Shown here: positions 11,427 through 18,380 of the stretch, piece after piece
Position numbering within the stretch: position 1 is the first letter of the stretch
Layout: each line of letters opens with the position of its first letter
Source: a bacterium
GTDB taxonomy: Bacteria; ARS69
Length of the DNA stretch: 59,513 nucleotides
Direction of reading: 5' to 3'
Assembly: GCA_025774805.1 (NCBI GenBank)
Contig: JALGZR010000016.1
Coordinates: 1-59,513 of the forward strand
Position numbers and translations under genes: made by a program
The notes under the pieces: generated by a model
Told to the model about the DNA's origin: nothing
Databases searched by the model: none
What the model saw: the letters and a program-made list of their open reading frames with translations, nothing else

Positions 11427-11761
11427 GAGAAGAGGCTCGATTCACGGGCTAGAGGCGAAGCCGACTTTCCGCCGGGTGGATGGAGGTTCCAGTTTCCCAT
11501 TCTATCATTCTCGAAAAGGGCCGATCAACCGGGACCTGTCGAAAGGCCAGAGCGGACGACCTCGGGAGGCGACCGGGCGCGGTGGGGATTTCTCTGCGGT
11601 CAGGACCGCCGGACCGTATACAATCGCGAGACTGGCGCGACACCGGTCCGACCGACTCGTTGCGACCGATCGCCTCGGAGGCGAGGAGTCGGAGGCGGAG
11701 CCCGACGTGGAGTCCCCGAAGCGACTCGCCTCCGAGACCCGCACCCGAAAGGAGCCGTCCC
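11427..11761. other. Divergent intergenic region, no gene seen
   Basis: This lies between the start of the epimerase operon and the FKBP gene. A TATACAAT sequence at 11617-11624 could be a -10 element for the FKBP gene, but there is no convincing -35 box. An inverted repeat of the type CGCCTCGGAGGCG occurs near 11669-11681. I see no supportable ORF. Confidence 0.4.
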
Positions 11762-12151
11762 ATCGCCGAGACCTCTCCCGAGGGTCCTCCCACACTGCCG
11801 CCCGGCCTGGAGACCCAGAGGACCGACAGCGGCCTGGAGTACCTGGACGTCGAATCGGGCGCGGGAAAGGCGGCACGGAAGGGCTCCCGCGTGCAGATCC
11901 ACTGTCGAGGTTGGCTCACGAACGGCACGCTCGTGGATGATACGCGAGCCCGGCAGGCCCCGGTTCAACTCACCCTCGGCGCGGGAGAGCTGATCACCGG
12001 GTTCGACGAGGGACTCGTCGGAATGCGGGTTGGAGGTCGCCGCCGACTGATCGTCCCATCGGATCTCGCCTTTGGAGCCGAGGGCCACAAGCCCACGATT
12101 CCACCCTACGCGACCCTCATCTACGACGTGGAGATTCTAGCCATCGGCTAG
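11762..12151 (+). CDS. FKBP-type peptidyl-prolyl isomerase
   Basis: The last 110 or so residues form a single FKBP domain: SGLEYLDVESGAGKAARKG, VQIHCRGWL, LTLGAGELITGFDEGLVGM, GGRRRLIVPSDLAFG and IPPYATLIYDVEIL. These include the pocket aromatics and the flap. It would be a cytoplasmic folding catalyst. The start is unclear: there is no ATG, and the best Shine-Dalgarno (AAAGGAG, 11751-11757) sits at proper distance from an ATC codon at 11762, which I use provisionally. An open frame extends upstream to 11480, but that part is Arg/Pro/Ser-rich and unlike protein. Confidence 0.8.
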   Translation: MAETSPEGPPTLPPGLETQRTDSGLEYLDVESGAGKAARKGSRVQIHCRGWLTNGTLVDDTRARQAPVQLTLGAGELITGFDEGLVGMRVGGRRRLIVPSDLAFGAEGHKPTIPPYATLIYDVEILAIG

Positions 12152-12280: not shown

Positions 12281-12310
12281 TTGACAGCCATTCTCATCAT
12301 TTGTTAATAT
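12281..12310 (+). promoter_or_regulatory. Near-consensus sigma-70 promoter
   Basis: TTGACA at 12281-12286 is followed after 18 bp by TAATAT at 12305-12310. A perfect -35 box and a 5/6 -10 box are striking in this GC-rich DNA. It points to the small secreted protein at 12567 and its overlapping regulator gene, with transcription expected to begin near 12317. Confidence 0.75.
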
Positions 12311-12566
12311 AGGCATGTTCTCGGATGTCCCGCTCCCCTCCCCCCGCATGGGAGCCCTCGGTCCCGCGCGACTCCACTGTACGCGCTCGTTGGCGCTCCC
12401 GGGAAGATCAAATGGCGGCTGAGATCCCCGCAAGTCCGCCGAGCCCGACTCCTTCGAGTGATTCTCGACAAGGGGCCGTGCCGATCTGCCGACATCCTCA
12501 GTGGACTCGCACCCATTGTCGTCCCCCCAGGATGTTCGAATCCGACGCAGAAAGGCGGAAAGCCGT
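12311..12566 (+). other. Long 5' leader before the small secreted protein gene
   Basis: About 250 nt separate the predicted transcription start from the ATG at 12567. I recognise no riboswitch or leader class. Open frames crossing it are of low-complexity composition and lack good starts. It may fold, since it is GC-rich with several short inverted repeats. The AAAGGCGG ribosome site lies just before the ATG. The region 12152-12280 upstream of the promoter shows nothing else. Confidence 0.4.
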
Positions 12567-12869
12567 ATGCACTTGACCGGACACATCAAGACCCTTTCGT
12601 TGACCCTCTTACTCCTGATCGGGATCTCCCTGGTCAATCCTCCGGTCATCGAGGCGCAAGATACCCGCTCGGAATACTCGGCGATCGTGGACGGCGAGCC
12701 GACCGACCCCGTGGACGCCCTGTCGCTTCTGGAGGCCGAGGAATACGAGAACTATGGATTCGACACGACCGTTCCGGAAGACGAGGACGCCTTCATCGAG
12801 TGGTTCGAAGCGCTTTTGGATCTGCTCTGTCATCTGGGTCTCATTCTGAACGAGGAGTCCGGTTCATGA
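12567..12869 (+). CDS. Small secreted, strongly acidic protein (candidate signalling peptide precursor)
   Basis: This is a 100-residue protein that I do not recognise as any family. It has a classic signal peptide: a basic start, a hydrophobic core (LSLTLLLLIGISLV), and a likely cleavage after VIEAQ near residue 31. The mature 69 residues contain about twenty Asp/Glu, a single Arg and no Lys. They end in an amphipathic stretch FIEWFEALLDLLCHLGLIL with one Cys. It follows a strong promoter and overlaps the next gene by 4 nt (ATGA), so the two are translationally coupled. The layout suggests that it works with the TPR/sigma-54 regulator, as a peptide ligand or as an exported effector. That is inference. 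Confidence 0.75.
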   Translation: MHLTGHIKTLSLTLLLLIGISLVNPPVIEAQDTRSEYSAIVDGEPTDPVDALSLLEAEEYENYGFDTTVPEDEDAFIEWFEALLDLLCHLGLILNEESGS

Positions 12870-15313
12870 AGCAGCGGCTCCGAGAGTTGAATCTCGGTGA
12901 TCGCCACCGCAGGGCCGAACTGCATTTCAACCGGGGGATGTTCGCCCCGGCGCGGGACGAGTACGTCGCTCTGATCGAGCGGGCCTCCGGACTGACCGAC
13001 GAGTCGAGCGCCGAACTCCGGTGGCGCCTCGGGATCTGCCTCGCCGCCCTCGGGCAGAGCGAGGAGGCCGAACGCGTGGTGGACGAAGCCCTCGCGCTCC
13101 CGGAGGTCCCAGAGCGGTTCCGCGAGAGACTGAAGGCTCTTCGAGGATTCAGTGCGCTCTCCCGGGGAGACTACGCCCGAGCGCACGAGATCACCCGGTC
13201 CGCCGTCGAGCGCCTGCACGAGTTGAAAGACCCGACCGGGCTGACGATTGCGCTGCGCTGGCACGCTCTGACCTGTCTCCGTCTGGGGGACCTGGAGTCG
13301 GCGTTCGAGTCGGCCTACTGCTCTCTCGCCGAGACGCGTCACGCCGGACTCGAGGCCGAGGCGGGGCACGCGCACGGCATTCTGTGCGTCGCCTTCATCC
13401 AGCGCGCGCAGTACGACACGGCGATCGAGCACGGCAAGGAGGCGCTCTCCGTCGCGACGCGCCTGGGCCACCAATCGGCGATCGTCCGGAACAACCTGCA
13501 CCTCTCGATTGCCTCGCGTCTGGCCGGTGATCTCGATCTGGCCGCGAACTACGCTCTGCGCGCCCTGGCGAGCGCCGAGGAGAGCGACGAGCCCAACCTG
13601 ATCGTCTCCGCCCGCCTGGCCGCGTCCCGGGCGCTGCGCGACTCGGGCCGACTCGACCCGGCCCGCGAGCTCGCCATGGGGGCGCTCGAGATCTCCCGCT
13701 CGGGGGAACGGGAGCGCGACCACATCCTGGTGCTGGAGGACCTGGGAGACCTCGATCGACTCGGAGGACAGATCCGAACCGCTCTCGAAAAGTACCGGGT
13801 CGCCTGGAGAAAGGCCGAGACGATCGCCGCCGAGGGGGATCTCGTCGCCGAGCTCGGCTGGCGCATCGGCGCCTCGCTTCTCGAACTGGGGGACGCGGAA
13901 GGGGCGGGCGCCTGGATCGAGAAGAGTCTCGTCGTCTGCGAGAAGGCGGGCGAGCGCAAGGAGCACACGCTGGCCCTGCGCACGCGGGCCCTCTGGCACG
14001 CCCGGTCGGGGCGACAGGCGGAGGCCCGGAGCGATCTCGAGGAGAGCCTCACCGCGCTCGAGTCCCTCAACGTTCCGTACGAGCAGGCCTGGACCCATCT
14101 CGCCTTCGACACCGTACTCGCCGCCGATGAAGGCGACTCGCCCACCGTTCACTCCGAGAGGCGAAGGCATCTGAGCTGCGCCCGCCGGCTCTTCGAGCGC
14201 ATCGGCGCGATCCACGGACTGGAGATGTGCCGGCAGGCGGAGGCCGCCCTGGCCGGGTCCGACACGATCGACGGCCCGCCGGGCGGCGACCGGGATAGGG
14301 GCCGAAGGGGCACCCCGGCCCTGGACATCGAGTGGCCTTCCCGCGCGTTCCGGGCCGCGCTCGAGGACTGCCGCAAGCTCGGCCCGACGAGCCTCCCGAT
14401 CCTGCTCGTCGGCGAGACAGGCACCGGAAAGACGCTTCTCGCCGAGGCCCTGGACCAGCTCGGCCATGGCGGGCGGGAAGGCGGGTTCTTCCCCGTGAAC
14501 TGCGCGGCGCTGCCGCACCACCTCCAGGAGTCCGAGCTGTTCGGACACCGCAAGGGAGCGTTCACGGGGGCGGAGCGCGAGCATCCCGGGATCTTCCGGG
14601 AGGCGGGGCGCGGGACGGTGTTCCTCGACGAGATCGACAAGACCTCCCTCGAGTTCCAGGCGAAGCTCCTCCATGTTCTCGACTACCGGGAGATCCGACC
14701 GGTCGGCTCCACGCAACGGGTCCCCGTCGAGGCGCGCATCGTCGGAGCCACGAACCGGGATCTGTTCGCGCTGGTCGAGAAGGGCAAGTTTCTCGAGGAT
14801 CTCCACCACCGCCTCACCTGCGGGATCATCCAGGTGCCCGCCCTGCGCGATCGCGTCGAGGATCTGCGCATGCTCTCCCTCTCTCTGCTCGAGGAGATCT
14901 GCGCGATCGAGCGGACCCCCGTTCCCGAGATCACCGAGGACGGCTGGCGCCTTCTCACCACCCACGACTGGCCGGGCAACGTCCGCGAGCTGAAGTCGCT
15001 GCTGCACCGGGCCGTGGCGCTCAATCGCGGATCCTCGACGTTGAGCGCCGAGATCATCCTGGACAGCGCACCGCTGGGCTCCACCCTCCGGGGCCAGGAC
15101 GGTCGGGAGGCGTTGAGGGTGACGGCGGGGGCCGGGGCGAGCAGTCTCGCCCAGCGCATGGAGAATGCGGAGCGCGAGGAGATCCTCCGGGCGTTCGAGA
15201 AGGCGGGCGGTGTGCGCAAGAAGGCCGCGGAGATCCTGGGGATCTCCTATCGCGGGTTGGGGAAGAAGATGGCCCGGCTGGGGATCGAGATCTCGAGGCG
15301 GAGGGCGCGCTAG
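12866..15313 (+). CDS. TPR-domain sigma-54-dependent activator
   Basis: This is an 815-residue protein. Residues 10-460 or so are built of TPR-like helical pairs (repeated A-x3-G/L-x2-A-E-A patterns) and replace the usual receiver or PAS sensor. The AAA+ domain has Walker A GETGTGKT at about 516, the sigma-54 contact loop GAFTGA at 564-569, Walker B VFLDEIDK, and GNVRELKSLLHRAV in the C-terminal lid. A Fis-type helix-turn-helix ends the protein (AAEILGISYRGLGKKM). It should open promoters with RpoN in response to something bound by the TPR array. The 4-nt overlap with the secreted peptide gene makes that peptide the prime candidate. Confidence 0.93.
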   Translation: MKQRLRELNLGDRHRRAELHFNRGMFAPARDEYVALIERASGLTDESSAELRWRLGICLAALGQSEEAERVVDEALALPEVPERFRERLKALRGFSALSRGDYARAHEITRSAVERLHELKDPTGLTIALRWHALTCLRLGDLESAFESAYCSLAETRHAGLEAEAGHAHGILCVAFIQRAQYDTAIEHGKEALSVATRLGHQSAIVRNNLHLSIASRLAGDLDLAANYALRALASAEESDEPNLIVSARLAASRALRDSGRLDPARELAMGALEISRSGERERDHILVLEDLGDLDRLGGQIRTALEKYRVAWRKAETIAAEGDLVAELGWRIGASLLELGDAEGAGAWIEKSLVVCEKAGERKEHTLALRTRALWHARSGRQAEARSDLEESLTALESLNVPYEQAWTHLAFDTVLAADEGDSPTVHSERRRHLSCARRLFERIGAIHGLEMCRQAEAALAGSDTIDGPPGGDRDRGRRGTPALDIEWPSRAFRAALEDCRKLGPTSLPILLVGETGTGKTLLAEALDQLGHGGREGGFFPVNCAALPHHLQESELFGHRKGAFTGAEREHPGIFREAGRGTVFLDEIDKTSLEFQAKLLHVLDYREIRPVGSTQRVPVEARIVGATNRDLFALVEKGKFLEDLHHRLTCGIIQVPALRDRVEDLRMLSLSLLEEICAIERTPVPEITEDGWRLLTTHDWPGNVRELKSLLHRAVALNRGSSTLSAEIILDSAPLGSTLRGQDGREALRVTAGAGASSLAQRMENAEREEILRAFEKAGGVRKKAAEILGISYRGLGKKMARLGIEISRRRAR

Positions 15314-15380
15314 CCGGGAGCGGATCGAGCCCCGGCGGACCGAGCGTCCCCGGAGATCGGAACCCATCAGAGTGCGGCAC

Positions 15381-15409
15381 GGGCCGGCGTCGAGCCGGTC
15401 CTTTCTTTT
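15381..15409 (+). terminator. Intrinsic terminator after the TPR/sigma-54 activator gene
   Basis: The stem GGGCCGGC/GCCGGTCC (one G-T pair) with a 5-nt loop is followed directly by TTTCTTTT. It lies 68 bp past the stop at 15313 and closes the transcription unit that begins at 12281. Confidence 0.75.
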
Positions 15410-17158: not shown

Positions 17159-18380
17159 CATCTCTCCCGACTCGGTCGCCGGCGCGACCGGGGGCCGGAC
17201 CGACGGATGGCGGGCCGCGCTCGGCGGGTTCCGCCGGAGTCACGACGACTACGCGTTTCCGTCGGGGGAAGGGCGGCCGGAGGGGGACGCCCACAACTCC
17301 GGCTTCGAGAACACGGGAGGGGCCCTTGTCGCCGAACGTTCGGTCGGTCCGGGATCCGTCCGGATCGTCGCCCTGGCGTCGACGGCCGATGGGGTCGGCC
17401 GACCCACGACGCGAAGCGGGAGACGCGGCACGATCGAGGGGGAGGATCATTGGCTTACGTCCGTTCGTTATCACCGTGATTTCGAGGAACGGCGCACGGA
17501 GGCGGTACTCGGGATCCACCGTCCGCGGACTCTGAACCGGGGGGAACGCTTCGACGCGGCGACCGGGCGGCCGACCCGCACGACGCGGCTGGAGAACGTG
17601 TCGACGGATCTGTCGTTCGCGAGCCTCGTCGAGCGTCCCCGGAAGGGCGGGACGTGGCTCGCCGGAGTGGACGTCTTCGCTCGGGAAGGGGTGGATGCGA
17701 CAGAAACGACCGTTCGGTTCGTTGACGGCACCCCCGGCGCTCCCGAAGAGATCCGCCTCGTCCAGAGGGGCCGCCGTCTCGACCTCGGAGCGCTCCTGGG
17801 GATGAAGCGGCCCTTCGGGTATCCGGGGGATTTCCGGCTGGCGGGCAGCCTGGACTGGGCTCGACGCTCAACAAACGAACGATCGTCTGCCGATTGGATC
17901 TCGCCCAGCGTCACGATCGGAGCCGTGATCCCTTTGGACGAGGCCTGGGCGATGACCGGGAATGCCGCCCGCTCGTTTCGGGCCCCCCGCCTCATGGAGC
18001 TCTACCTCGAAGGAGACCGCCCGGGGGGAGCGCGGCGCGCGAATCCGGATCTCGGGCCGGAATCCGCGTGGTCGGCGGAGGCCGGCGTGCGATGGACGCG
18101 AAGGGGATGGACGGCCGAGGCGGCCGCGGAGGCCGGCGTGCGATGGACGCGAAGGGGATGGACGGCCGAGGCGGCCGCCTGGGGAATGGTGGCGAAGGAC
18201 CTGATCGTCCAGCTCCCGATCGACGCGGCCGCGGACACATTGCGAAACGAGAACGAGGCGACCGGGCTCCTCGCGGGCGTGGAGGGAGCGGCGGAGTGGA
18301 GCGTCGCTTGTCCCCCGAGTCGCACCCTGCGCGTGGAGCTCAGCCTCGGAACCTATTCCTCCAGGTCCACGTTCCAGTAG
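17159..18380 (+). pseudogene. Internal fragment of a TonB-dependent outer-membrane receptor
   Basis: The frame is open from the methyltransferase stop at 17127 to 18380 and reads as receptor barrel: GWRAALGGFRRSHDDYAFP, then the characteristic SFRAPRLMELY and ANPDLGPESAWSAEAGVRW signature of TonB-dependent receptors. There is no signal peptide, TonB box or plug domain, and the last strands are missing. The 5' side is cut at a miniature element and the 3' side runs into the end of the HNH gene. A 51-bp tandem duplication lies inside it. An apparent start at 17598 is just an internal codon. It is almost surely not functional. Confidence 0.8.
18078..18179. repeat. Perfect 51-bp tandem duplication
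   Basis: Bases 18078-18128 and 18129-18179 are identical except for the last base. The unit is 17 codons (EAGVRWTRRGWTAEAAA), so the frame is kept. It lies within a barrel strand pair of the receptor remnant and looks recent, or it could be an assembly artefact. Confidence 0.9.

Follow-up and report, generated by a model that had tools for sequence, protein, structure and literature searches.

Why a gene for a small secreted protein should overlap the start of a gene for a TPR-containing sigma-54 activator is the question raised by positions 12281–15409 of the analysed contig, a stretch of 59,513 nucleotides hereafter referred to as the window. An initial sequence-only reading had interpreted the two genes as a candidate peptide-receptor cassette, self-contained and reminiscent of RRNPP quorum systems but with output to RpoN promoters. 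Comparison with related loci leads us to propose, with a probability of about 0.58, that the TPR-sigma-54 activator has a dedicated ligand in the small exported protein co-transcribed with it, and that the two bind directly.

The first ORF (12567–12869, plus strand; ATG at 12567, stop codon 12867–12869) encodes 100 residues and, as initially described, a secreted protein of unfamiliar family. A Sec-type signal peptide was assigned heuristically to approximately residues 1–30 (12567–12656, plus strand; cleavage near VIEA/Q), the procedure for all small proteins being a simple hydrophobicity and AxA rule complemented by inspection. The protein belongs to no Pfam or NCBIfam family, and scans of 20 small proteins against Pfam and of 11 against NCBIfam likewise returned no match. 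Its predicted mature part is strongly acidic (20 D/E, one K/R, pI 4.05) and carries an acidic/proline motif, GEPTDP (residues 43–48, 12693–12710, plus strand), that is conserved among orthologues, as well as a predicted hydrophobic amphipathic C-terminal helix, AFIEWFEALLDLLCHLGLIL (12789–12848, plus strand).

The stop codon of the small ORF and the start of the second gene (12866–15313, plus strand) have an ATGA in common. The encoded 815-residue protein contains TPR, Sigma54_activat (E = 8.7e-52), AAA_lid and HTH_8 (Fis) domains according to Pfam, and the AlphaFold model of its TPR region resolves 23 helices, corresponding to 11 TPRs in a superhelix (pLDDT 91.8), the array spanning residues 10–466 (12893–14263, plus strand). 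It is followed by the AAA+ sigma-54 interaction domain (residues 492–652, 14339–14821, plus strand), featuring the Walker A sequence GETGTGKT and an intact GAFTGA loop (14555–14572), and by the Fis-type helix-turn-helix HTH_8 (residues 765–804, 15158–15277, plus strand; Pfam, E = 8e-11), so that the architecture and the overlap first noticed are both confirmed. The protein is a sigma-54 enhancer-binding protein, judged by its Sigma54_activat domain with Walker A and GAFTGA, its Fis-type C-terminus and the presence of RpoN in the genome; RpoN (PF04552) is encoded in 16/16 genomes tested, including its own.

Upstream of both genes lies a sigma-70-type promoter (12281–12310, plus strand; TTGACA, 18 nt, TAATAT, with a TG before the -10) recognised from the sequence and by orthologue comparison. 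Described earlier as near-perfect, it matches the consensus at 10/12 positions, where about 0.2 such sites are expected per shuffle, and a TTGACA/T -35 element with an extended -10 occupies the same position in 6/6 orthologous loci. A ribosome-binding region with the string AGAAAGGCGG (12548–12558, plus strand) is likewise common to 6/6 orthologous loci in the alignment. Directly 3' of the promoter (12311–12360), a stretch GTTCCCGGATGTC...GCTCCCCCCGCCGGGA is kept in several orthologues (L074, L076, L077 and L078, at the corresponding place upstream) and could form a 5' leader hairpin; an Rfam scan of the window found no element. At the far end, a terminator-like hairpin with a T-rich tail does exist where the unit had been thought to close (15381–15401, plus strand), but the terminator call is weak because 1.5 such sites are expected in the stretch by chance. 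The gene directly upstream of the cassette (11480–12151) resembles FKBP-type peptidyl-prolyl isomerases and is kept at most orthologous loci. At 18075–18178, 51 bp are perfectly duplicated in tandem and in frame, apparently within an outer-membrane receptor gene.

The suggested look for sigma-54 sites gave none in 19 regions upstream of cassettes and none above chance in the window, and a strict genome-wide pattern yielded a single, unlinked match. The failure to detect a target promoter or a sigma-54 site close to the cassette counts against the ligand model.

Orthologues of the activator (58–66% identity) occur in four other genomes of the family, each with a small exported ORF directly upstream that carries GEPTD(P/L) and whose stop overlaps, or nearly overlaps, the activator start. 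A sixth GEPTDP cassette, L074, lies at the edge of a contig of 4.2 kb (G000:C20) in the window's own assembly, and the motif is present in the small proteins of 6/6 orthologues, one of which reads GEPTDL. Upstream of the L074 cassette there is an FKBP gene; the flank shares 73% identity with G002:C11 and resembles another genus, and this copy may represent a paralogue or contamination. More distantly, 8/8 paralogous TPR activators of these genomes (33–38% identity) follow a gene for a small exported protein, with motifs including GDPEYP, NDPEVP and GDPDQP, and the same holds for 5/5 TPR-GAF activators of the family, whose partners carry GDPDxP. When a TPR-GAF activator served as query against 386 genomes, full-length relatives were recovered in about 10 further families; all those examined, and likewise two from the family of G013, have a small ORF upstream, and Pfam detected TPR, sigma-54 AAA+ and Fis-type HTH domains in eight of the distant relatives.

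By inspection, a small signal-peptide ORF lies directly upstream of 48/48 complete TPR-sigma-54 activators from 12 families. The proposed coupling is therefore strongly supported well beyond this locus, and a homologous activator devoid of an adjacent small secreted ORF, one of two refuting cases named at the outset, was not encountered among the TPR homologues examined. A strict automatic call placed a small exported ORF at 18/22 TPR activators versus 1/48 non-TPR activators. A permissive call gave 45/47 TPR-type activators versus 13/54 controls (Fisher p = 2e-14), with many control matches resembling histidine kinase ends and a few positives picking the wrong ORF; p-values for the pairing overstate independence because the loci are related by descent, and the 12 families are the safer measure. 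Many of the genomes are draft assemblies, and start codons are uncertain for some activators. One seeming exception, L146/L206, was dismissed since an upstream in-frame start restores both the signal peptide and an HPWDD motif, and two apparently partnerless activators with long N-termini, L197 and L203, were rejected because the open frames behind these N-termini seem spurious. An approximately 1750-residue fusion of Ser/Thr kinase, ATPase, TPR, GAF and sigma-54 activator (G000:C282, L087:2444–7705; domains judged from the sequence) has a different architecture, and no small exported ORF stands in front of it.

An exact-peptide search of the genome contigs retrieved one AAA-only relative as its sole match. 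From the side of the small protein, a profile built from 20 members recovered, across five genomes of the family, its training members and one new match (E = 1e-7), on G003:C128, in front of a TPR gene within which the contig stops. A second profile, run against 386 genomes, brought up a single further confident match besides its members, in G342:C42, located before a TPR activator. At confident E-values no clear orphan small protein emerged from these profile searches, whose sensitivity is limited because the proteins are short and diverged. Both the strict one-to-one pairing and the finding that confident matches, two of them outside the training set, occur only beside TPR genes favour a ligand. 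Strict pairing could also arise from a common physiological role without contact, which weighs against the ligand model, and the two genes might simply share an operon, with the small protein acting as a secreted effector or envelope component that never touches the regulator. For such an arrangement, the fast evolution and the amphipathic, mostly cationic tail of the small proteins would suit a membrane-active product; the strictness of the pairing across families, the failure to find orphan small genes and a motif that tracks the activator group nevertheless make it rather unlikely.

The spacing of the two genes bears on a further alternative, namely that the small ORF encodes an arrest peptide of the SecM/VemP type, which senses export and controls how the activator is translated. 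A secreted small ORF directly upstream would fit this idea, as would the ATGA or similar overlap found in most non-GAF pairs. GAF-class pairs, however, are mostly separated by 15–129 nt, and because many pairs have such gaps the mechanism is disfavoured; moreover, the intergenic stretches show no conservation between genera, and the conserved motif lies mid-protein, ahead of variable tails. Compared with SecM/VemP leaders, gaps of up to 129 nt and variable C-termini leave neither the tight coupling nor a conserved C-terminal arrest motif, and we consider translational control of this kind very improbable.

Two further observations concern the GAF class. An inverted repeat, GTGAA-N5-TTCAC, lies between the small gene and the TPR-GAF activator in two exact copies (L080:1184–1198 and L079:6583–6597) and two near copies (L090 and L091), and is a possible operator. 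In addition, 17/34 GAF-class proteins have GAFTDA, GSFTDA or GSFTNA in place of GAFTGA or GSFTGA as the loop that contacts sigma-54, including L080, L079, L089 and L091, which is unusual and sets these members apart from known enhancer-binding proteins.

The small proteins evolve fast, yet keep the signal peptide, the acidic/proline motif and usually a hydrophobic amphipathic tail. In their mature parts of 50–90 residues, the most conserved positions lie mid-protein while the C-terminal tails vary. The mature region does carry a conserved motif, so that the other refuting case named at the outset, an unconserved mature region, does not apply either. Variants of this motif include GEPTDP, GDPDxP, GDGDIP and (E/H)PWDD; orthologues share a nearly invariant version, and each group has its own, as illustrated by family f99, where GGGDPDNPVP occurs in 6/6 small proteins belonging to one activator group and GDGDIPE in 5/5 belonging to the other. 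A regular expression for the motif matched 33/45 small proteins versus 2.4 in shuffles, a count that is descriptive only because the pattern was chosen after viewing the sequences. In a close genome pair whose activators are 95% identical, the motif-bearing stretch differs by two synonymous codons and one nonsynonymous codon, the signal peptide and rest of the small protein by two synonymous and 16 nonsynonymous codons, and the activator by 145 synonymous and 53 nonsynonymous codons. Constraint on the motif-bearing stretch in this pair, together with motifs that are constant within and divergent between orthologue groups, argues for a ligand. The tails are more hydrophobic than the remainder in 30/33 small proteins and mostly cationic; most members of the window's orthologue group have acidic tails, and the designation as an acidic peptide, although correct for this group, does not extend to the majority of other pairs.

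On the receptor side, conservation across the TPR array is higher at concave than at convex positions (p = 1e-4 and 0.003), and a concave patch in TPR6-9 comprises R255, E291, D295, W332 and R333. R333 is kept in 43/47 activators and an Asn in 34/34 GAF-class proteins, which, along with the universal presence of RpoN in the genomes tested, supports the ligand model. Basic and polar groove residues opposite an acidic motif would suit direct recognition, although conservation of the concave face could serve another ligand. The suggested prediction of a peptide-TPR complex was unsuccessful and speaks against the model: in a pseudo-complex (L141) composed of the mature small protein, the natural intergenic linker with the stop read as Q, and the TPR region, the small part remained disordered (pLDDT < 50) and no docking was obtained, a low-confidence outcome from an alignment that omitted the small-protein rows because these were misaligned with the TPR.

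Under the ligand model, a housekeeping sigma-70 promoter would serve both genes and the signal peptide would direct the small protein to Sec export, two steps for which the evidence lies in the sequence itself. The acidic/proline motif would then dock into the conserved basic/polar groove of TPR6-9, and groove occupancy would set assembly of the AAA+ ring and, through it, the activity of RpoN promoters located elsewhere. The form read would be cytosolic, either as a not-yet-exported precursor that reports the state of export or the envelope, or as a returned fragment, and paralogous pairs within one genome, having different motifs and tails, would maintain separate specificities. These two versions are sub-cases of the ligand model, and the probability assigned to it includes both.

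The returned-fragment version corresponds to RRNPP-like quorum sensing, in which an exported propeptide is cut to a short pheromone that an oligopeptide permease brings back into the cell, where the TPR activator binds it. Like the RRNPP(A) pairs of Bacillota (Rap-Phr, PlcR-PapR, NprR, AimR), the present loci combine a small exported ORF with an adjoining, multi-TPR regulator, several divergent pairs occur per genome, the motif is constant in orthologue groups, and Rap structures appear among the Foldseek matches of the TPR model in the PDB (rank 42, 8rsv). LGN and other TPR proteins fit the model better, however, and Rap is not separated from LGN-like TPRs in this comparison. Re-import is possible in the window's genome because Opp/Dpp binding proteins (PF00496) are present there, as in 13/16 genomes overall, but three cassette-bearing genomes of 97–100% completeness (G140, G161 and G342) contain no detectable Opp/Dpp binding protein or POT transporter, these being the importers surveyed, and other importers may exist. 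The RRNPP layout was rightly noted as far as adjacency and the TPR regulator are concerned, while gene order is reversed, with the small gene first, the mature part is long, and the conserved stretch lies mid-protein rather than in a short C-terminal pheromone. The receptor is moreover a sigma-54 activator of 760–1050 residues with AAA+/Fis output instead of an HTH_3-type DNA-binding domain or a Rap-type output; a published large-scale RRNPP search covered only Bacillota and viruses and considered only receptors 250–500 residues long (PMC10075063). By the tests made, the module is not an RRNPP member but may work like one, and we regard re-import as doubtful.

Sensing of the unexported precursor, in which the TPR activator would bind it in the cytosol so that export status sets sigma-54 output, is slightly favoured over re-import. 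It would account for the signal peptide and for co-translation and would require no importer. In type III secretion, TPR chaperones bind short translocator motifs in their groove and act as co-activators once freed (IpgC-MxiE, SicA-InvF), a loose precedent for a TPR protein that is paired with an exported partner and acts on transcription. One report (PMC3299695) describes IpgC as working with MxiE on genes under secretion-activity control. The present system differs in that TPR and activator are joined in a single chain, the partner is predicted to be exported by Sec, output proceeds through sigma-54 and no secretion apparatus adjoins the cassette. Sec precursors do not persist for long, it would seem redundant for a genome to have several such sensors, and we know of no precedent for an export-coupled TPR switch with a Sec substrate; we rate this version as conceivable but not probable.

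Among enhancer-binding proteins, these activators share the AAA+ Sigma54_activat domain, the GAFTGA-type loop and the Fis-type HTH with the NtrC/NorR/NifA class, and many relatives possess a GAF domain as do NorR and NifA, yet the sensory module here is an 11-repeat TPR array and, in all 48 cases, a small exported protein is encoded in front. Neither a description of pairs of a small exported protein with a TPR-sigma-54 activator nor a sigma-54 activator known to be paired with exported proteins was found in the literature searched. TPR receptors that sense peptides are known mostly in Bacillota, and the pair looks like an undescribed signal-and-sensor module. A broader generalization, to which we give somewhat less than even odds, is that each TPR-sigma-54 activator in many lineages has an exported small protein of its own that gates it via the acidic/proline motif, with several orthogonal pairs per cell. 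If this gating is true, RpoN promoters would answer to whether a protein made by the cell itself is exported, retained or returned. The pairing names a likely ligand for the many sigma-54 activators of the TPR type, it supplies some 50 naturally occurring pairs whose motifs differ and which lend themselves to specificity tests, and its strictness and wide distribution provide a concrete, directly testable way into the signalling of poorly studied bacterial lineages.
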